Shown here: in pieces, positions 10,800 to 59,111 of the stretch
How positions within the stretch are numbered: position 1 is the first letter of the stretch
Layout: each line of letters starts with the position of its first letter
Assembly (NCBI RefSeq): GCF_000299415.1
Contig: NZ_AMPG01000001.1
Location: 806,001-870,000, forward strand
Reading direction: 5' to 3'
Length of the DNA stretch: 64,000 bases
From: Candidatus Microthrix parvicella Bio17-1
GTDB lineage: Bacteria > Actinomycetota > Acidimicrobiia > Acidimicrobiales > Microtrichaceae
Notes under the pieces: model-generated
What the model was told of the DNA's origin: nothing
Databases searched by the model: none
Seen by the model: the letters and a program-made list of their open reading frames with translations, nothing else
Position numbers and translations under genes: made by a program

Positions 10800-12782
10800 T
10801 CAGGGGATGGTTTCGCTCTCGTCGTCGCCTGGTTGTGAGGGGATGGTTTCGCTGTGGCGTTGTGAGTGGAGGGTTTGTCCGGAGGGGGTGGTCCAGTGGA
10901 AGGTGCCGTTGGGTTGGCCGTTGGGGTGGTGGTTGGGTGACATCTGCCAGTGGTGGCGGTGGGTGATGTCGTGGTGGGTGGTGCAGAGCAGTGCCATTGA
11001 GTCGAGGTTGGTGGGGCCGCCTTTGGACCAGTGGATGGTGTGGTGGGCTTGGGTCCAGCCAATGGGGGTGTCGCAGCCGGGGAACACGCAGCCGCCATCG
11101 CGGACCCGGAGGGCGCGTTGTTGTGCGGGGGTGGCGGTGCGGACTGCTCGGCCCATTTGGAGGATTTCGTGGGCGGAGGTGGTGACGAAGGTGTGGATGG
11201 TGGGGTTGCAGAGGAGCCGCCAGAGGTTGTTGTCGGCGAGTTTGGCGGTTCCGGCGAGGACGTCGCCGCGTTGGCCGAGGATCCGTCGGAACCAGTCACG
11301 GGAGGTTTCTCCTCCTGGTGGGGCCTGCGACACCACCAACGGATCGGCAGGGTTGGCAGGGTTGTTGTTTCCCTCGTCGTTGCGACCGTTCGTGGGAACG
11401 TCACGGTCGTTCGGTGTGGGAGCCTGCCCACGACCGGCAGCGGTACCCCCGGCAGCGGTACCCCCGGCAGCGGGATCGTCGGCGCGGTGATCCCCGGCAG
11501 CGGGAACCTCGGCAGCGGGATCGTCGGGGGGCGGATCCCCGGCGGCGGGAACCTCGGCAGCGGGAACCTCGGCAGCGGGAACCTCGGGGGGCGGATCCCC
11601 GACGGCGGGATGTTGGGCGTTGCGGTCTGCGGGGTTGGTGGTGTTGGTGTTGGTGGCGGGGATGGGTGCGGCTTCGATGTCGAGGTTGATGTGGGTGACG
11701 GGACCGCCGGTGGACTGCTCGGAGGAACCCCGGCGTAACAGGTCCAGCAATGCTCGTGCTCGGAGGACCGCCCGGGTTGGGACTCTCAGGTCGGGGGTAA
11801 GGTTCGTGTCTCGGCGGGCCTGGCGGTACAACCGGTCGGTGTGGGCCTCGACCAACTGTCGGATCTCCTCCGCGGTCGACCCGGTGAAGGTGCCCTTCAG
11901 ATCAACGAGACCGTCAAGGGTTTCGGACAGAAACACCTTGTCGTCGTGTTCGACCGCAGGTTCGGGGCCCTCAGTGTCCAACAGGGCACACACCGCAGAC
12001 AGTTCGCGTCGCCACGAACCGAACCGGCGTCCCGTCACACGGCCCAACAGTTCGTCCTGGAGATCAACCAACGCTGTTTCGGTGCGGTCGTTGGAGGCAC
12101 GCACCAGCGCCGCACAATAGGAGTGATCGATCTCACCTGCGGCCAAGGCTGCTGCGAACCGGTGGAACGTGGAATCGAGTTTGGCGGCGACCCGGGTGGT
12201 CTCAGCAGCCTGGGGGCCTGGGACCTCCTGGGTGCGGCTCAGCCAGGACGTGGTGCGTTCACCGAGTTGTTTGAGTGACGCGTTGGTGTCTTCAAGGCGG
12301 GCGATCATCTGGGCTTCGGCCGATGCCAGGAACCGGCGGCACAAGCCGATCGCCTCGACCGCGACCATCAAATCAGCCACATCCACCCCACCCCCAGCAC
12401 CAGCACCAGCACCAGCACCAGCACCAGCACCAGCACCAGCACCAGCACCAGCACCAGCAGCACCGTCGGCGGCGGCACCGTCGGCACCGTCGGCGGCGGC
12501 ACCAGCGGACCCGGCATCTGCCGTGCCTGCAGCAGCGGCTACACCCGGGTTGGCGGTGCCGGACTCGGCAACGTCGGCAACCACAGCCGAACCCCACAAC
12601 GGTTGGCGGGGCTGTGCTTTGCCGACTCCTCGCTCGACCAACAGGCGTGCCGCGTCGGCCACCGAACCCGCCAACACGCTGACCGGCACCGAGGACCCCC
12701 AATCGGGATGCCACCGTGCGTCGACCTCGGCGAAATACACCGAAAAGTCTTTCGCCTCAGTCGTGTCGAAAACGTCGAGCAT
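10800..12782 (-). CDS. DUF222 / HNH endonuclease (13E12-type) with repeat linkers
   Basis: 660 residues from ATG 12782 (20 upstream residues in the same frame look non-coding). After an N-terminal helix comes an Ala-Gly dipeptide tract (encoded by 12395-12459), then a DUF222 helical domain (VEAIGLCRRFLASAEAQMIARLED to ALLDLLRRG). A long Pro/Ala/Glu/Asp linker with repeated PAAEV and PAAGD units follows. A C-terminal HNH nuclease domain carries RDGGCVFPGCD, GWTQAHHTIHWSKGG and ALLCTTHHDITH. This family is multicopy in actinobacteria and often interrupted by mobile DNA; it is a putative DNA nuclease with no proven role. Both linkers are simple-sequence repeats and so hypervariable in length. 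Confidence 0.88.
   Translation of the reverse strand: MLDVFDTTEAKDFSVYFAEVDARWHPDWGSSVPVSVLAGSVADAARLLVERGVGKAQPRQPLWGSAVVADVAESGTANPGVAAAAGTADAGSAGAAADGADGAAADGAAGAGAGAGAGAGAGAGAGAGAGGGVDVADLMVAVEAIGLCRRFLASAEAQMIARLEDTNASLKQLGERTTSWLSRTQEVPGPQAAETTRVAAKLDSTFHRFAAALAAGEIDHSYCAALVRASNDRTETALVDLQDELLGRVTGRRFGSWRRELSAVCALLDTEGPEPAVEHDDKVFLSETLDGLVDLKGTFTGSTAEEIRQLVEAHTDRLYRQARRDTNLTPDLRVPTRAVLRARALLDLLRRGSSEQSTGGPVTHINLDIEAAPIPATNTNTTNPADRNAQHPAVGDPPPEVPAAEVPAAEVPAAGDPPPDDPAAEVPAAGDHRADDPAAGGTAAGGTAAGRGQAPTPNDRDVPTNGRNDEGNNNPANPADPLVVSQAPPGGETSRDWFRRILGQRGDVLAGTAKLADNNLWRLLCNPTIHTFVTTSAHEILQMGRAVRTATPAQQRALRVRDGGCVFPGCDTPIGWTQAHHTIHWSKGGPTNLDSMALLCTTHHDITHRHHWQMSPNHHPNGQPNGTFHWTTPSGQTLHSQRHSETIPSQPGDDESETIP
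12395..12459. repeat. Hexanucleotide microsatellite (CAGCAC)n inside the HNH gene
   Basis: About eleven uninterrupted copies of a 6-bp unit, continuing into imperfect GTCGGC/GGCACC repeats to about 12515. On the minus strand it encodes an (Ala-Gly)n linker. Being a multiple of three, copy-number change keeps the frame and only changes linker length. Confidence 0.9.
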
Positions 12783-12874
12783 GAGGCCAGTATGACGATG
12801 GCCTGTGACAACGAAGCCGCCACAAACCCTGTTTGAGAACAATCCGCAGGTCAGCTCAGGCCGAGCGGCTAGCG

Positions 12875-49738: not shown

Positions 49739-50620
49739 TCAACGGATGCCGATGCTGGCATCGGCACCGGGCGGGCGCCCCTCCACCAGGCCCAGCAGCG
49801 CCAGGGCGGGCACCTCCAGCGGCAGGGTGGTTCGGGTGATCAGCAGATGCGTGTCCGTACGCCCCTTGTGCACGGTCGGCCCAAACGCCGACCAGAAGGC
49901 GCCGTGGTCGGAGATCGTAAGTTCGGGTGGAAGCTGGTCGCGGGCGAAGCGTTCACCCATGCCGGAGTCTTCGGCACGGCCGCTGGTGATGATCGGGCGC
50001 ACCAGGTGGTCGTCATCGGTGATGCCCCAGCTGCGGTGCAGGGCGCACAGCCTGACCTGGTCATCGGGCATCATGGCGCCCTCATCCACGGTGGTGGCGA
50101 TCCGCACGGTGTGACCGCGCCCCACCATGCGGGGCACAGCGTCCACCACCTTGGCGTAGTTCAACGGACCGCGCATCGCGTCGTTGGGCTCCGGGTCGGG
50201 CGAGTCCAACGAAATCTGGAAGCGCACCGGCCGATCCACCAACACATCGAGTGCATCCAGGCGGTCGCCGCCAAACAGCGTGCCGTTGGTCAGCACGGTC
50301 ACCGGAAGGTGTTCCGACATGGCCACGATGATGTCGGGCAGGTCGCGCCGCAGGAAGGGTTCGCCGCCGGTGACGCCCACCTCTTTGAAGCCAAGCGCTG
50401 CGGCCTGTTCTGCGATGGCCACCATCTGCTCGGGGCCGATGATGCGACGGGTCGATCTGGGCGCCGACTCGGTCAGGCAGTAGGCGCACTCCAGGTTGCA
50501 GTGATAATTGGAGTACACCCAGACCCGGCCCGGCAGCAGGCCCGACTCGATCGCCGCTGCGATGGGCCCGACGGTTTCGTTCACGGTCGCTTCGGGATCC
50601 GTTGGTGCTTCGACGCTCAC
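49739..50620 (-). CDS. Radical SAM protein without SPASM extension
   Basis: 293 residues. The S-adenosylmethionine radical motif C-x3-C-x2-C is in YSNYHCNLECAYCLTES (about residues 37-53), followed by VGVTGGEPFLRRDLPDII, VTVLTNGTLF and FQISLDSPDPEPNDAMRG, typical of the barrel. The C-terminus has no further Cys cluster, so no SPASM or twitch domain binds a second iron-sulfur site. Substrate unknown. Translationally coupled (4-bp overlap) downstream of the carboxymuconolactone-decarboxylase-like gene. Confidence 0.88.
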   Translation of the reverse strand: MSVEAPTDPEATVNETVGPIAAAIESGLLPGRVWVYSNYHCNLECAYCLTESAPRSTRRIIGPEQMVAIAEQAAALGFKEVGVTGGEPFLRRDLPDIIVAMSEHLPVTVLTNGTLFGGDRLDALDVLVDRPVRFQISLDSPDPEPNDAMRGPLNYAKVVDAVPRMVGRGHTVRIATTVDEGAMMPDDQVRLCALHRSWGITDDDHLVRPIITSGRAEDSGMGERFARDQLPPELTISDHGAFWSAFGPTVHKGRTDTHLLITRTTLPLEVPALALLGLVEGRPPGADASIGIR

Positions 50621-51195
50621 AGGTCCACCTCAAATCCGCCGGAGGCAAGCCTCGCCAGCGTGTCGTCTCCCACAGGCAATTTCAACGCGGAGCAGAACCT
50701 GTTCAACAACATCGTCACCCCAATGGTGTTGGTCAGCTCCACCAGTTCGTAGTCCTCAAAGTGTGCTTTGGCCGCCTCGGTCACCGCAGCGCTCACGGCA
50801 CCCCGGCCTCCGGCCACCTCGTCGATCCACGCCAGCAACGCCAGCTCGGCCGGATCGTCAAACTCGTCGGCCCACTGCACCTCGCCCCGAAGGCCCCGTA
50901 CCTCGGCATCGGTCAGTCCCACGTCCAACGCCACCGTCGTGTGGGCGGCCACGCAGTAGCGGCAGGCCAACACCGCCGAGGTGCGCAGGATGGCCAGTTC
51001 CTTCACGCGGGCACCGGTGCTTCCAGCACCCAAGGACGCCCCCAAAAACGGCAAGGCCACCAACGCCAGCTCGGGCACCTGGGCGAAGGCTGCTGCAATC
51101 GGGCCGGGGTCCCCACCGGCGAAGAGATCCTCCACCAACAGCGGCGCCGTGGTTGGGTCGAGCAGTTCCACTTGAGTCACGGGCTTGTTTCTCAT
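50617..51195 (-). CDS. Carboxymuconolactone decarboxylase/AhpD-like protein
   Basis: 192 residues of all-helical CMD fold: ARVKELAILRTSAVLACRYCVAAHTTVALDVGLTDAEV with the redox pair C-x2-C and the His. Such proteins act as alkylhydroperoxidases or decarboxylases. The pairing with a radical SAM enzyme suggests that the CMD protein either supplies or protects the substrate. Confidence 0.85.
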   Translation of the reverse strand: MRNKPVTQVELLDPTTAPLLVEDLFAGGDPGPIAAAFAQVPELALVALPFLGASLGAGSTGARVKELAILRTSAVLACRYCVAAHTTVALDVGLTDAEVRGLRGEVQWADEFDDPAELALLAWIDEVAGGRGAVSAAVTEAAKAHFEDYELVELTNTIGVTMLLNRFCSALKLPVGDDTLARLASGGFEVDL

Positions 51196-52375: not shown

Positions 52376-52686
52376 CGCCATGATCAGCTGGCCACGATCC
52401 GCCGCCTTGAAGCCGTCGATCACGTCGGCGACAGCGGCCTCCTGGTGAGGGCGAAGAATCAGTGGCCGGTGCCACGCTCTCGGGCCACCAAATCGACCCC
52501 GGTGTCAGGCTGACCATCCCGGCCGGGCCGATCCATCCACAACCACACCGCGTCGAACCGCTCCACCCACAGCGGGTCGGTCTGGAAATAGGCCTCACAG
52601 AACTTCTCGAACCGGTTGCCCTTCGCAGCGGTCGTTTTCGCCGAATCGTCGAACTTCTCCAGCAACTGGCGGAACGTCGTAGGCGG
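52376..52686 (-). pseudogene. Remnant of a large helicase/restriction-type gene
   Basis: Two pieces of one family are readable in adjacent frames. The first, 52459-52686, reads FRQLLEKFDDSAKTTAAKG, NRFEKFCEAYFQTDPLWVERF and AVWLWMDRPGRDGQPDTGVDLVARERGTGH, then stop. The second, 52376 to about 52444, reads HQEAAVADVIDGFKAADRGQLIMA, which in functional homologs continues into the Walker A CGTGKTF. The deleted middle and everything after LIMA are missing. This family (DEAD-like helicase with an N-terminal restriction-like Mrr/PD-D/ExK domain) belongs to defence islands. Beside it is a tyrosine recombinase, suggesting excision or replacement of an older island. Confidence 0.72.
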
Positions 52687-52814
52687 GGCCTGTACCCCGG
52701 GGGTCAGAACTGGAAGTAGATTGAACCCCAGTCGATTTACCCAAAGGCTCGGTTGTGACGGTGCCTGGGTGGACTTGCTCAAGGTTCCTGCGGCGTCATG
52801 AGAGGCTGCCGGAA

Positions 52815-53687
52815 GTGGCGATCCGACTGCGGATCGTGAATGCTCACCCCAAGGAGGTCGACTCATGCGTTGGTGAGTACCTGGCCGACCAAGAACTCGC
52901 CGGGCTTCGCCCTGTGACCCGCTACCAGCACAACACGCTGCTGGGTCGATTGTCTCGACACATCAGCCCCACGCAGCTCCGAGATGCCACCTCCGACCAG
53001 CTCCGTGACTTCTTGCTTCGTTCAAAGGCCAACGGTCAGCCGCTCAGCCAAGGCACACGCGCTGGGGAGGCATCCTGGCTCCGCTCCTATTTCGGGTGGC
53101 TCCACCGAACCGGTCGACGCGCCGACAACCCCACCGAATACCTCCCGAGACCGAAACACCCACGACGACTCCCCCGTCCAATCGGAGAACCAGACCTCGA
53201 AATGGCCATCGCTCTCGCAGACGCACGAATGCGCGCATGGCTCCGCCTCGCCGCCTACACCGGGCTCAGAGCCGCCGAAATCTCGATGCTCCGAGGCGAG
53301 AACGTGCTGTTGTCCCAACACCTGATCGTGATCGCTGAAGGCAAGGGCGGACGACCGGGCGTAGTCCCCGCCCACCCGTCGGTCCTCCAATCGCTCACCG
53401 ACTGGGGACTCCCCCAAGCAGGATGGGTGTTCCCCCACACCTACAAACACGACGAGCCCATCAAGGCATGGTCCGTCTCCCACAAGGCCGCCGACTACCT
53501 CCGCTCATGCGGGATCGACGCCACCATCCACCAACTCCGACACCGTTTCGCAACCGCCGTCTACCAAACCTCCGGCCGAGACCTCCGCACCACCCAAGAA
53601 CTCCTCCGCCACGCCACACCCCTCAGCACCGCCATCTACACCTGGGTCGACCCAGCCGACGCATCCCAAGCCGTCAACGCGCTCTAA
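52815..53687 (+). CDS. Tyrosine recombinase/integrase
   Basis: 290 residues from GTG 52815, or up to 310 if GTG 52755 is used. N-terminal SAM-like domain (EYLADQELAGLRPVTRYQHNTLLGRLSRHI, HRTGRRADNPTEYLPRPKHPRRLPRP). The catalytic domain has Arg in YTGLRAAEIS, the H-x-x-R box HQLRHRFATAVYQ, and the last His and Tyr in LLRHATPLSTAIYTW. It cuts and rejoins DNA at specific sites; the site is not visible as a clean att pair. The gene is next to a helicase remnant and 0.5 kb from the GNAT/repeat/protease group. Confidence 0.9.
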   Translation: MAIRLRIVNAHPKEVDSCVGEYLADQELAGLRPVTRYQHNTLLGRLSRHISPTQLRDATSDQLRDFLLRSKANGQPLSQGTRAGEASWLRSYFGWLHRTGRRADNPTEYLPRPKHPRRLPRPIGEPDLEMAIALADARMRAWLRLAAYTGLRAAEISMLRGENVLLSQHLIVIAEGKGGRPGVVPAHPSVLQSLTDWGLPQAGWVFPHTYKHDEPIKAWSVSHKAADYLRSCGIDATIHQLRHRFATAVYQTSGRDLRTTQELLRHATPLSTAIYTWVDPADASQAVNAL

Positions 53688-54191: not shown

Positions 54192-55016
54192 CTACGCCGT
54201 CATCGACGGCGGAAAGTGCTCGGCCAGAGCGCTGAAGAACGCTGTGCGTTCGATGCCGACGATGAGCTTGTCCCAGTACACTCCATCGTGGAAGTAGAAG
54301 TCCTTCAGTCGACCCTCAACCCGGCAAATGTCGGGAGGCAGCCCCTCGATGACGTTCTCGTTGTACCCGGGTATCTCTAGGTAGATCTTCCGAAGGGGCC
54401 AACGCGTGAACCCGTAGGCCATTGCCAGAACTACACCGTGAACTCGGCGCAACGCCACTCCGGATCCAGTACTTCCCAGTCCTAGAACTCCGAAATAGGC
54501 GATGTTGACGAACGAGTCGTATCCGTACAGCACGTTGAGGAACAGGGGCGCTTTGGATACCAGCTCTTCTGCGATGAACTGAACCAGGACATCCTCTCCG
54601 AATGTGGAGGCGAACTGTTCGGCGGAGGGGATCTGGCCACGGTAGCGCCAGCGGTTTGCCACGGCGGGGTCTGAAACCTCGCTATAAATCCGCTCCAGGT
54701 CATCGCCCCGGACAGCTCGGATCCTGACCAGACTCGTCGTCCCAGTTGCGAGGTCCACCGGGATAATTCGCCGACTCTTGGCGCCCCGGATATCCAGCCA
54801 CTCTGCAACCTCGCGCAGTGTCCTGATGGACTCCAACAGGCCGTCGTTCGAAGGCTCTACGCCCTCGGTCAACAGAGCCAAGACTCTTGTCCGGTCGTAC
54901 TTGCTCAGCTCATCCAACCCGACGTCGAGGTCGAGGTCATCAGGATCCTTGGCCATACGGGCCGCAATCGCGTTGAGCGATGCCCCGTTGTAGGTGTCGT
55001 CGGTTCCAGATGCCAC
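54192..55016 (-). CDS. GNAT acetyltransferase with an acyl-carrier-like N-terminal region
   Basis: 274 residues from GTG 55016. Residues 1-75 (ASLNAIAARMAKDPDDLDLD, VGLDELSKYDRTRVLALLTEG, LLESIRTLREVAEWLD) have the helix spacing and D/E-rich turns of an acyl-carrier protein but lack a DSL serine. The rest is a GNAT fold of the RimJ/RimL type (RIRAVRGDDLERIYSEVSDPAV, YGYDSFVNIAYFGVLGL, VVLAMAYGFTRWPLRKIYLEI, VEGRLKDFYFHDGVYWDKLIVGI). It probably acylates an amine of a neighbouring product. Codon use is less GC-rich than the average, consistent with transfer. It starts 2 bp after the repeat-protein stop. Confidence 0.7.
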   Translation of the reverse strand: MASGTDDTYNGASLNAIAARMAKDPDDLDLDVGLDELSKYDRTRVLALLTEGVEPSNDGLLESIRTLREVAEWLDIRGAKSRRIIPVDLATGTTSLVRIRAVRGDDLERIYSEVSDPAVANRWRYRGQIPSAEQFASTFGEDVLVQFIAEELVSKAPLFLNVLYGYDSFVNIAYFGVLGLGSTGSGVALRRVHGVVLAMAYGFTRWPLRKIYLEIPGYNENVIEGLPPDICRVEGRLKDFYFHDGVYWDKLIVGIERTAFFSALAEHFPPSMTA

Positions 55017-55018
55017 GC

Positions 55019-56047
55019 TCAGCCCGTAAATGAGGGCTGCAGGGTATTCCCTGGTTGCGTGGTTGTAGTCGGACTTGTTGTGACGGGAGCGGCATCTGCC
55101 AGCCCGCAAGTGGAGTCAATCGTGATCACGTAGGTCGTGCCTTCCCCTGCACCCCGACCTTCGACGGTCATCCCGTTCGTGATGGGAGGCTCGATCACGT
55201 TGTCCGGGTCGCTGTCGGGTTCGGGCAACGGATCGCCTGGCTCCAACGCGACTGCCCCAGGGGCCCACGGAGCAATGATCGGGTGGTCAATGGTGTCTTT
55301 ACCCTCATCGTCGGTGCCCTGTGTGCAAATCAGATAGGACGTGGGTGGGACCGGATCGGCGGCACTTGGCGGATCGTCTGCCAGCCCGCAAGTGGAGTCA
55401 ATCGTGATCAGGTAGGTCGTGCCTTCCCCTGCACCCCGACCTTCGACGATCATCCCGTTCGTGATGGGGGGCTCGATCACGTTGTCCGGGTCGCTGTCGG
55501 GTTCGGGCAACGGATCGCCTGGCTCCAACGCGACTGCCCCAGGGGCCCACGGAGCAATGATCGGGTGGTCAATGGTGTCTTTACCCTCATCGTCGGTGCC
55601 CTGTGTGCAAATCAGATAGGACGTGGGTGGGACCGGATCGGCGGCACTTGGCGGATCGTCTGCCAGCCCGCAAGTGGAGTCAATCGTGATCAGGTAGGTC
55701 GTGCCTTCCCCTGCACCCCGACCTTCGACGATCATCCCGTTCGTGATGGGGGGCTCGATCACGTTGTCCGGGTCGTCGTCGGGTTCGGGCAACGGATCGC
55801 CTGGCTCCAACGCGACTGCCCCAGGGGCCCACGGAGCAGCAACTGCGTGGTCAATGGTGTCTTTGCCCTCATCGTCGGTGCCCCTTGTGCAGATCACATA
55901 CGGCTCAGGCTCCTCCTGAGATGGCACGGCAGCAGCTGTCGGGCTGCCTACGATGCCGGACGCTCCCGTCATGAACGCAACCCCGCCGATCAAAGCACCG
56001 ATCGCGAAGACGCCGATCGAGGTTGACCTGAAGATGGACCTACTCAT
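55019..56047 (-). CDS. Secreted protein of three near-identical 94-residue repeats ending in PSFTG
   Basis: 342 residues from ATG 56047. A signal peptide (SRSIFRSTSIGVFAIGALIGGVAFMTGASG) precedes three tandem units of 94 residues. Each contains YLICTQGTDDEGKDTIDH, APWAPGAVALEPGDPLPEPD, NVIEPPITNGM and GRGAGEGTTYLITIDSTCGLAD. Each unit keeps two Cys (ICT and STC) likely forming a disulfide. The protein ends in a Thr/Pro-rich linker and NTLQPSFTG, the same final five residues as the PI-PLC-like protein at 6779-8353. Repeat DNA is nearly identical (282-bp period), so expansion is recent. Function unknown; it sits between an acetyltransferase and a secreted protease. Confidence 0.82.
   Translation of the reverse strand: MSRSIFRSTSIGVFAIGALIGGVAFMTGASGIVGSPTAAAVPSQEEPEPYVICTRGTDDEGKDTIDHAVAAPWAPGAVALEPGDPLPEPDDDPDNVIEPPITNGMIVEGRGAGEGTTYLITIDSTCGLADDPPSAADPVPPTSYLICTQGTDDEGKDTIDHPIIAPWAPGAVALEPGDPLPEPDSDPDNVIEPPITNGMIVEGRGAGEGTTYLITIDSTCGLADDPPSAADPVPPTSYLICTQGTDDEGKDTIDHPIIAPWAPGAVALEPGDPLPEPDSDPDNVIEPPITNGMTVEGRGAGEGTTYVITIDSTCGLADAAPVTTSPTTTTQPGNTLQPSFTG
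55095..55905. repeat. Three tandem 282-bp repeats encoding the surface protein units
   Basis: Copies at 55095-55376, 55377-55658 and 55659 to about 55905 (the third loses identity towards its end). Only a few bases differ between copies, e.g. GATCACGTAG in the first versus GATCAGGTAG in the others. Copy number is likely to vary by slippage or recombination and is prone to assembly collapse. Confidence 0.92.
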
Positions 56048-56101
56048 TGCGGTTCTCCCTGCCTGTCGTGTGAACATTTGCAACGTCTGGACCGCAGCTG
56101 C

Positions 56102-57340
56102 TCAGCCTGTCAAGACGAGAGCGCCCATGAACGCGCTGTCGTCGTTGATCGACGTGCCGCAACCGTTTGACCCCTGGTAGCCCCAGAGGATACCACGGGC
56201 CGACGCCCGGTCATTGGAGAGCTTCTTGTACATGCCGGAGCCGGAGTCACCTCCAAGAGGCTTCGCTCCGCCCAGGCAGAACCCGTCGAATGTGCGTCCG
56301 CCCACGTTGAAGTTGGAGAAATAGCTGACCCCACCGCATTTCTCAGATGCGGATGTTGCGCCCCGGTAGCAGATATTGGTCTCCAGCCATACGGGATTCG
56401 CCTGGCCGACAACGGTCCGCTTGTAGTTCGAGTTGATGTAGACGTGCGGGCTTGCGTTCGGGGACGAGTGCAGCATCACGTCGAGCTGGTTCGCACCGGT
56501 TGGGGACCAGACGGTCCCTGATCCGTAGTAGCTCGCAATGTTCCCTGAGACGTTGGCGTCGCCGTGGGATGCGTTGACCGCTTTGCCAGCACCGGTCGCG
56601 CAATGCGCTGCCGTGAACTGCACTTTGGCTCCGCCGTTGACCGCCCCGGAGAACCCTGCGGTACAAGCGCCGTAGTACCCGGGAGATGTCTCGTGGAACT
56701 CGCGCACTCCGGAAGCTGATGGGTCCGGGTAGGTCATCCCGATTTCCTGCCGGCCCTCGTACACCACCCAGTCAGCTTCCCAGGTGTCCTGGACGGATGC
56801 GAGATCCTCATCGTTGACGTTCGAGCCAACGCTGAGGTAGATCAGGCCGGTCTTGAAGTCGTAGCGGACTGCGGACGCGTCGATGCCCGCCTCCAACAGC
56901 CTCTCATTGATGCTCCCCGCTTCCTCTCGAAGAGAAGCGGCTGACCTCGTCGACTCGACGACGCTCACGTCGACAGGGAGGTCCAGCGCCTCCAGTACTT
57001 CACGATCGCGCGACGTCGGCCCCACGATCCCGACCGTCACGCCGGTCTCGTCGCCTTCAGCTGTCAGCCAGAGCCCTCCGAAGCGAGCAGAGTCGACCGC
57101 TCCGAGGATCGACTCCTCGACCTTCCCGAGTTCCTCGTTGGCAGCCTCATCCAAGTACCGCTCCGCTGTGATGGTGTAGCTGACCTGCGGGTCATCGATC
57201 GACGGATCGGGCTCAGGTGACGGGCCTGCCGGGCTAGCGCCAGCAGTGCTGACACCCGATAGGGCCAACGGAGCGAGGAGCGCAGATGCTCCGAGTGCAC
57301 GGGCGAGTGCCTTGGCTTGAGGGTTACGGTTCAATCCCAT
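56102..57340 (-). CDS. Secreted S1-family (streptogrisin/alpha-lytic-like) serine protease
   Basis: 412 residues from ATG 57340. A signal peptide (KALARALGASALLAPLALSGVSTAGA) and a pro-region (about 30-210, with an alpha-lytic-type VRYDFKTGLIYLSVGSN segment) are followed by the mature chymotrypsin fold. FTAAHC holds the catalytic His, QLDVMLHSS the Asp, and GDSGSGM the nucleophile Ser. Four Cys in the mature part (CTAGFSG/AAHC, ICYRG/EKCGG) allow disulfides. It ends in ALVLTG. It is upstream of the repeat-protein gene on the same strand (54-bp gap) and may process that surface protein (inference). Confidence 0.9.
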   Translation of the reverse strand: MGLNRNPQAKALARALGASALLAPLALSGVSTAGASPAGPSPEPDPSIDDPQVSYTITAERYLDEAANEELGKVEESILGAVDSARFGGLWLTAEGDETGVTVGIVGPTSRDREVLEALDLPVDVSVVESTRSAASLREEAGSINERLLEAGIDASAVRYDFKTGLIYLSVGSNVNDEDLASVQDTWEADWVVYEGRQEIGMTYPDPSASGVREFHETSPGYYGACTAGFSGAVNGGAKVQFTAAHCATGAGKAVNASHGDANVSGNIASYYGSGTVWSPTGANQLDVMLHSSPNASPHVYINSNYKRTVVGQANPVWLETNICYRGATSASEKCGGVSYFSNFNVGGRTFDGFCLGGAKPLGGDSGSGMYKKLSNDRASARGILWGYQGSNGCGTSINDDSAFMGALVLTG

Positions 57341-57524
57341 GAATGAAGAACGTACAATGCGACCGAGGCCAGCACAAGAAGATGTTTCAACTCTGTTCGA
57401 TTTGGCAGAACCGATGGGGTCCACCATCGTCGTCCCGGCCCGCGACAGTTGGAGAGCTGCGACCATGCGGGTCAATAGGTGAACGTCGCATGACGTTGGA
57501 GCCCGGCCAAGCACCCACACCCCG

Positions 57525-57883: not shown

Positions 57884-59111
57884 ATGACCATTTTCGTGGG
57901 CGATGACTGGGCCGAGACCCCATCACGACGTCCATCTGATGAACGACACCGGCGAAAAGCTTGCCGCGAAACGGTTCCCTGAAGGGCTCGAGGGGATCGC
58001 GGGTCTCCACGCGTTGATCGCGGAGCACACCACCGACCCTGGCGAGGTGATTGTCGGGATCGAGACCGAGCGGGGCATGTGGGTCCAAGCGCTGATCGCC
58101 GGCGGGTATCGGGTGTATGCGATCAACCCGTTGTCGGTGTCTCGCTACCGGGACCGACACAACGTCGCCGGCGCTAAGTCCGACCCTGGTGACGCCAAGC
58201 TGTTGGCTGATCTGGTTCGCACCGACCGGCACAACCACCGGCCCGTCGCCGGCGACTCCGACGAGGCCGCCGGGTTGAAGGTGCTGGCACGGTCACATCA
58301 GAACCTGATCTGGGACCGGACCCGTCACACCAACCGGTTGCGCAACGATCTCCGCGAGTTCTTCCCCGCCGCACTCGTCGCATTCGAGAGCCTTGCCGAT
58401 CGTGACGCGGTCGCGGTGCTGGGCAAAGCCCCGCATCCTGAGCTGGCCCGCCGTCTGTCGGTCGCCCAGATCCGCTCAGCACTCCGCAAAGGCGGACGGC
58501 AACGGAACCTCGACGACCGGGCCACCCAGATCCAAGCCGCGTTGCGCACACCACAACTGACCGCACCACCAGATGTCGCGGCCGCGTTTGCTGCGACCAC
58601 GAAAGCGCTGGTCGAGGTGATCGCCGGGCTGAACGACGCCATTGGCGAACTCGAAACCGAGCTGGCCACCCATTTTGATGAACACCCGGACGCCGACATC
58701 TACCTCTCCCTGCCAGGACTCGGTGTTGTGCTCGGCGCCCGGGTGCTCGCAGAGTTCGGGGACGACCCCGACCGCTACGACACCGCCAAGTCTCGCAGGA
58801 ACTACGCCGGCACGTCACCGCTCACCATCGCCTCCGGCAAAAAACACGCAGTCCTCGCCCGACACGTCCGCAACCGGCGCCTCTACGACGCCATCGACCA
58901 ATGGGCATTCTGTGCGATCACGACAAGCCCCGGCTGCCGCCAGTTCTACGACCACCGACGAACCACAGGTGACCTCCACCACCAAGCCCTCAGAGCCCTC
59001 GGCAACCGGCTCGTCGGCTACCTCCACGGCTGCCTACGAACCCGCAGCACCTACAACGAACACACCGCCTGGGCCCACCGCCAACCAGCCCCAACCCAGA
59101 CCGCTGCTTGA
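57884..59111 (+). pseudogene. IS110-family DEDD transposase, frameshifted
   Basis: ATG 57884 encodes MTIFVGDDWAE, the standard IS110 N-terminus with the first DEDD Asp, but after GAG-ACC the frame is wrong and ends at 57982. The other frame from 57903 continues HHDVHLMNDTGEKLAAKRFPEG, then VIVGIETERGMWVQAL (Glu), KSDPGDAKLLADLVR (Asp pair) and a Tnp20 C-domain LPGLGVVLGARVLAEFGDDP and GTSPLTIASGKK (catalytic Ser). One extra C in the run 57918-57921 explains the break. Without a repair the protein lacks the first catalytic Asp and is probably inactive. Confidence 0.85.

Follow-up and report, generated by a model that had tools for sequence, protein, structure and literature searches.

The question raised by this locus is what a secreted protein made of near-identical repeats has to do with the secreted protease and the acyltransferase encoded directly beside it. 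The locus lies in a stretch of 64,000 nucleotides of Candidatus Microthrix parvicella Bio17-1, the whole of which is called the window here. On the minus strand the genes follow in the order protease, 54 nt gap, repeat protein (REP), 2 nt gap, acyltransferase of the GNAT type, and together they are a three-gene operon at 54192-57340. The first-pass annotation had described this region as a compact unit, and the start sites agree with that description: ATG at 57340 for the protease, ATG at 56047 for REP, with a Shine-Dalgarno-like AGGGAGA upstream of it, and probably GTG at 55016 for the GNAT. This GTG, 2 nt past the REP stop, is the most likely start of the acyltransferase gene. A scan for promoters and terminators gave no signal above that of shuffled sequence. 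The features are as follows.

56102..57340, minus strand: S1 serine protease of the alpha-lytic/streptogrisin type, with signal peptide and pro region (longest ORF 56102-57520)
55019..56047, minus strand: REP, 342 aa, ATG at 56047 (from ORF, start site and composition)
55622..55903, minus strand: REP unit 1, 94 aa
55340..55621, minus strand: REP unit 2, 94 aa
55058..55339, minus strand: REP unit 3, 94 aa, the last ~12 residues diverged
54192..55016, minus strand: GNAT of the carrier-linked family, probable GTG start at 55016 (longest ORF 54192-55109)
54762..55013, minus strand: N-terminal helical domain of the GNAT, at the place of its relatives' ACP (from alignment), with DRT where the carrier has DSL
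54234..54746, minus strand: GNAT core, SpeG-like, with the motif RWRYRG..PS.E.F (from alignments and profile)

On one side of the trio lies a tyrosine recombinase gene (52755-53687), on the other an IS110 element (57903-59111), and the GC content of its region is 0.62, compared with 0.64-0.71 across most of the window. Beside the tyrosine recombinase, which begins at 52755, a short ORF (52459-52866) matches no more than the beginning of a type IIG restriction enzyme and looks like a truncated gene. Elsewhere in the window, a carboxymuconolactone decarboxylase-type gene (50617-51195) is immediately followed by a radical SAM gene (49739-50620) in the same orientation, and this pair (49739-51195) may be functional. 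A large minus-strand ORF at 10800-12842 carries low-complexity Pro-Ala and Gly-Ala arrays and, by eye, an HNH-like end.

The array with by far the highest TRF score in the window lies at 55095-55900 (period 282, 2.9 copies, 96% matches, score 1500). Identity at a lag of 282 was 0.968 over 524 bp, while the best of 1000 shuffles reached 0.330, and the near-identical tandem 282-bp repeats claimed for this locus were thus recovered. A single Lys is present in each of the three 94-residue units, together with the Cys pair (C5, C78) and the GRGAGEG loop, and Pro/Asp/Ala-rich linkers separate the units. That the units show few base differences was likewise borne out: unit 1 differs from unit 2 at 15 of 282 bases and from unit 3 at 38 of 282, and units 2 and 3 differ at 23 of 282, yet at just 4 of the 246 bases that encode residues 1-82. 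Because the copies can be told apart, at least three units are present, the number of middle copies being that of the assembly. The differences, which between units 2 and 3 fall mostly at the diverged end, suggest that the array arose by recent duplication and not through misassembly.

REP is predicted to be exported, since a signal peptide precedes the three units, and a short Thr/Pro tail follows them. The protein is acidic (calculated pI 4.05), no anchor was seen in its sequence, and structure prediction of the unit was too poor for use (mean pLDDT 42.8). Searches with REP gave no match above cut-off in Pfam and none in NCBIfam, PADLOC or PDB; a sub-cut-off Pfam match to ToxB_N was judged to be due to chance. 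No convincing homologue was found in 148 related genomes, where the single match (E 8.6e-4, 19 bits) was also put down to chance, as were the five matches (E 0.003-0.007, 18.5-19.6 bits) of a unit profile in 397 genomes of the order, which gave nothing convincing either. A pattern scan of the genome contigs returned no relative, nor did plasmids or phages, and a PHROGs match over 33 residues to a family of unknown function (E 0.0019) was again considered fortuitous. By these comparisons REP appears to be an orphan, found in this genome alone among the sequences searched.

For the protease no Pfam match was obtained. A profile built from the window protease and three relatives matched the alpha-lytic protease pro region 2pro (E 5e-6) and the lytic endopeptidase 5mrt (E 6.6e-6). 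The catalytic residues occur in the order TAAHC, Asp, GDSG, and the His, Asp and GDSGSG columns are conserved. With the His-Asp-Ser triad kept and the pro region and protease domain both matched, the gene upstream of REP does encode an S1 protease, as had been read from the letters, and it shares this domain layout with alpha-lytic protease and streptogrisin; it is just ~26-36% identical even to relatives within the same bacterial family. Matches were found in 6 of the 148 related genomes, its own included, and none in plasmids or genome contigs. Five matches lay outside its own genome, and in the three neighbourhoods of these that were read neither REP nor the GNAT stood beside the protease. 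Nor did any of 2813 test-locus ORFs and 729 held-out ORFs resemble REP or the protease, the window's own excepted. The search in other genomes thus speaks against co-conservation of the trio, REP being confined to this genome and protease relatives occurring elsewhere, an outcome that the first-pass annotation had itself named as contradicting its proposal.

The GNAT core, when used as a profile, matched spermidine N1-acetyltransferases (6vfm, E 2.7e-17), and the window GNAT had matches in 24 of the 148 related genomes, its own included. A family was defined by the core RWR(Y/F).G..PS.E.F together with a profile score well above that of other GNATs. The profile was built from 29 GNAT cores, one of which is the window core, and in 396 genomes of the phylum it left a gap between members (at least 115 bits) and ordinary GNATs (at most 85 bits). 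By its core motif and its score of 179.8 bits the window GNAT belongs to this carrier-linked family, which is present in 42 of 397 genomes of the order at E values up to 1e-25. Loss of the CoA-binding P-loop was considered as a mark of the family and dropped as not specific: the pattern is carried by 8 of the 29 family members, and by 23 of 40 and 6 of 20 controls.

What recurs beside this family is an exported protein. A neighbour was counted when it lay on the same strand, within 200 bp, and carried a signal peptide according to a home-made, crude rule. Of 42 match rows, those of 37 relatives and of the window itself entered the count (38 in all); three that fell in loci already counted and G073:C180 were left out. 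The controls were 40 PF13302 GNATs of the same genomes and 20 GNATs weakly matching the family profile, and the held-out set consisted of family members from genomes not used before. An exported co-directional neighbour was found at 21 of the 38 discovery loci, compared with 1 of the 40 PF13302 GNATs (Fisher p 9e-8). Under the same rule 14 of 26 held-out loci were positive (p 1.5e-6 against the same 1/40 control), or 15 of 29 with three lower-scoring loci added. The weakly matching GNATs gave 3 of 20, and a signal peptide was predicted for 40 of 350 background ORFs. All 21 discovery positives have E below 1e-13 (21/32), and the weaker matches gave 0 of 6. When the GNATs were grouped by hand at 45% identity, 14 of 25 groups remained positive (p 8.8e-7). 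The window itself, with REP as same-strand exported neighbour, was scored positive by the fixed rule.

Under this crude predictor nearly half of the family loci are without an exported neighbour; by eye, exported proteins adjoin most family members, and several that the rule missed were seen in this way, e.g. in L060, L063 and L065. At least one held-out positive, L264, looks false, its neighbour being by eye a luciferase-like protein. The GNAT and its partner are kept together in locus pairs such as L069/L071, L049/L051, L054/L056, L058/L060 and L067/L072, with partner identities of 34-62%. The neighbours include Kelch and NHL propellers, Peptidase_A4 and Exo_endo_phos proteins, and many are without any family. 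Enrichment of Gly-Lys, the HlyC-type site, was not supported, since it accounts for 36 of 374 Lys in the exported partners and 154 of 1581 in background ORFs.

Several further observations were made at these loci. A segment of ~65 aa (PGGG..Y.Y..NG....YPVPP.GFDPLTA....L..YGFPPRP) is common to secreted GNAT neighbours in L058, L060, L062, L066 and L080; besides preceding Peptidase_A4-like domains it stands alone in a secreted protein of 148 aa and in a lipoprotein, and it may act as a pro domain or in recognition. In two genomes (L057:5786-7105 and, downstream, L262) the GNAT is adjoined by a protein that by eye resembles a sulfotransferase (PRSGST.LRF.LD.H). ECF sigma factors are encoded near the GNAT and exported protein at L047:433-996 and L072:3111-3668, which suggests that regulation of these two loci is envelope-related. 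In L074, L184 and L075 a tandem GNAT-like pair adjoins an exported protein of the Tat type with an (I/V)DV.GYY/F-like motif at its end.

The second recurring element is an acyl carrier. According to Pfam, PP-binding domains occur in GNAT-family proteins at the N-terminus or the C-terminus, so that PP-binding and Acetyltransf_3 are called in the same protein. A profile of 12 family carrier domains matched solved ACPs (best 1klp, E 8.9e-13). This profile found 15 of the 42 test loci, 12 of which had been used to build it and three of which were independent; the independent ACPs are separate genes adjoining the GNAT in L053, L059 and L079, with DSL or DSF. It also matched 16 of 29 held-out loci, 12 of these with a readable Ser motif and two at a distance (920 bp and 415 bp), and 1 of 40 control loci, there several kb from the GNAT. 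An AMP-binding ligase adjoins the GNAT in L050, L066 and the held-out locus L242, and the apparent end of one was seen by eye in L181, where a weak match was also obtained; a ligase-like match was obtained in 1 of 40 control loci (L149). For a ligase, a carrier, a GNAT and an exported protein encoded together, the simplest reading is that the carrier donates its acyl group to an amine.

How far the window conforms to this pattern depends on the N-terminal domain of its GNAT. The gene downstream of REP had been called an ACP-like/GNAT protein; the GNAT part of that description holds and the ACP-like part is weak, because the carrier serine is missing and hhalign gave a probability of 12.7% against intact family ACPs. 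Clear kinship with ACPs is not supported for a domain with DRT for DSL and this score, and no PP-binding match was obtained in Pfam for the window GNAT protein. The serine is also missing in several members of the same bacterial family, and many members of the GNAT family are likewise without a fused or adjacent ACP that carries the phosphopantetheine serine. No ACP match was found in the window or in 31 kb of its flanks, and the acyl-ligase-like ORFs of the window lie 12-30 kb from the GNAT. Searches of Pfam and NCBIfam gave no match to the RtxC/HlyC family and nothing but weak spermidine acetyltransferase matches. A structure prediction of the GNAT made without relatives was too poor for use (mean pLDDT 32.6). 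As judged from its sequence, the window GNAT appears to be a divergent, reduced version of the family, with an ACP-like domain that lacks the carrier serine.

Our main reading, to which we assign a probability of roughly 0.4, is that the family consists of ACP-dependent acyltransferases that modify their exported partners before export, by a logic like that of HlyC and CdiC and with no membership of those families by sequence. A ligase or primary metabolism would load the carrier with a fatty or other acyl group. While the partner is still in the cytoplasm, the GNAT would then transfer this group to one of the partner's amines, most likely that of a Lys, and the acylated exported protein would gain a lipid handle or an altered activity. 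The fewest assumptions are needed if the acceptor is the exported protein itself, since this is what recurs beside the GNAT; HlyC, CdiC and the GNATs that lipidate small peptides are parallel cases. In the window the fused carrier domain has lost its serine, so that acyl-CoA or a separate carrier would have to supply the acyl group; the single Lys of each REP unit (DDEGKDT) would be the candidate acceptor. We infer the acylation of REP, the acyl transfer, its donor and acceptor and the role of the protease from gene context, and because of the missing serine and the orphan status of REP the claim for the window is weaker than that for the family. Tentatively, and with some doubt, the proposal may be drawn more sharply: a ligase, an ACP and a SpeG-like GNAT, encoded with their substrate, would lipidate diverse secreted proteins and peptidases before export, and the window would be streamlined to a single GNAT and a repeat protein with one acceptor Lys per unit. 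The earlier proposal is partly supported: the exact trio is not conserved, but the more general idea of an acyltransferase tied to exported proteins gains support from the GNAT family as a whole.

The same neighbourhoods might instead serve the synthesis of a small N-acylated molecule (an acyl-polyamine or acyl-amino acid) by the carrier-linked GNATs, which the exported neighbours would bind, move or hydrolyse, the protein not being the acceptor. This would fit the core, whose nearest relatives in the PDB are spermidine N1-acetyltransferases, and a ligase, carrier and GNAT as in L050, L066 and L242 suffice for a small lipid. Moreover, the partners, among them propellers, Peptidase_A4 and Exo_endo_phos proteins, are unrelated to one another, and such unrelated folds are odd for one substrate class. 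However, no recurring transporter or other biosynthetic gene was noticed by eye in the loci read, and what does recur is an exported neighbour, in many cases one without an assigned function; we regard a small-molecule product as somewhat unlikely. It is rather unlikely as well that the window GNAT is a plain acetyl-CoA acetyltransferase (SpeG- or RimJ-like) or a decaying member, and that the trio is cargo without a common function beside transposases and an integrase. An N-terminal domain without Ser, a trio that is not co-conserved, the flanking recombinase and IS110 element and the lower local GC would all be expected of cargo, but the genes lie 2 nt and 54 nt apart on one strand, and neighbourhoods of this kind are met in the family much more often than chance would give.

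Two further explanations concern REP itself. Once outside the cell, REP may be cut by the S1 protease into its single 94-residue units, the GNAT being incidental. The two genes are adjacent and both products are predicted to be exported, the linkers between the units are rich in Pro, Asp and Ala, and secreted peptidases are met in other family loci (Peptidase_A4 in 4 of 55 neighbours, and HExxH metalloprotease-like proteins by eye in L070 and L183). On the other hand, protease relatives exist without REP, and an orphan REP offers no family in which conserved cleavage sites could be revealed; processing of this kind, with an incidental GNAT, seems unlikely. That the repeat is an assembly artefact is highly improbable. 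Units 2 and 3 are almost identical and the copy number is as assembled; but the 15 differences between units 1 and 2 and the distinct 5' and 3' edges indicate three different copies, the reading frame is open across all units, and the contig is 1.7 Mb long.

The reading of the family as ACP-dependent acyltransferases of exported partners has precedents. With HlyC and CyaC the donor is the acyl-ACP of the cell, and the type I pathway exports the substrates, which are RTX toxins. The likeness to these RtxC proteins lies in a predicted acyltransferase gene adjoining the gene of an exported protein; no sequence relation of the present family to RtxC was seen, its carrier is fused or adjacent, and its partners look to be of the Sec/Tat or lipoprotein type. 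The nearest solved structures to the window GNAT core are those of the spermidine N1-acetyltransferase SpeG, an enzyme that uses acetyl-CoA as donor and is not known to have a carrier domain or an exported partner. Toxin-activating acyltransferases (TAATs) are described in excerpts of PMC8339906 as having a GNAT fold and as using an acyl-ACP donor to modify a Lys of the adjacently encoded RTX protein before export. CdiC, in the available part of PMC8510554, is an acyl-ACP-dependent acyltransferase inside the CdiA locus that lipidates a Lys of the exported CdiA. In the class IV CdiC-CdiA systems CdiA is type V secreted with CdiB, and CdiC is a TAAT; none of these was found here. GNAT maturases, according to an extract of PMC13060382, attach long acyl chains to gene-encoded peptides at Lys, at Orn or at the N-terminus (selidamides, nostolysamides, goadvionins). 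Their substrates are small leader precursors accompanied by a lanthionine synthetase, whereas whole proteins with signal peptides are concerned here; REP, with 342 aa and a signal peptide, and with no synthetase noticed among the neighbours, falls outside the GNAT-lipidated RiPPs. While HlyC, CdiC and the lipidating GNATs are thus already known, no account of a family of carrier-linked GNATs associated with exported proteins was found in the portions of the open-licence PMC literature that were consulted.

The carrier-linked GNAT reading gives direct predictions that are testable by mass spectrometry. Lipoproteins apart, few exported proteins of bacteria are known to be fatty-acylated, namely RTX toxins, CdiA and some small peptides. 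If the reading is true, REP, with its single Lys in each unit, would make a simple substrate, and a family in one bacterial order would widen acylation to ordinary secreted enzymes and surface proteins.
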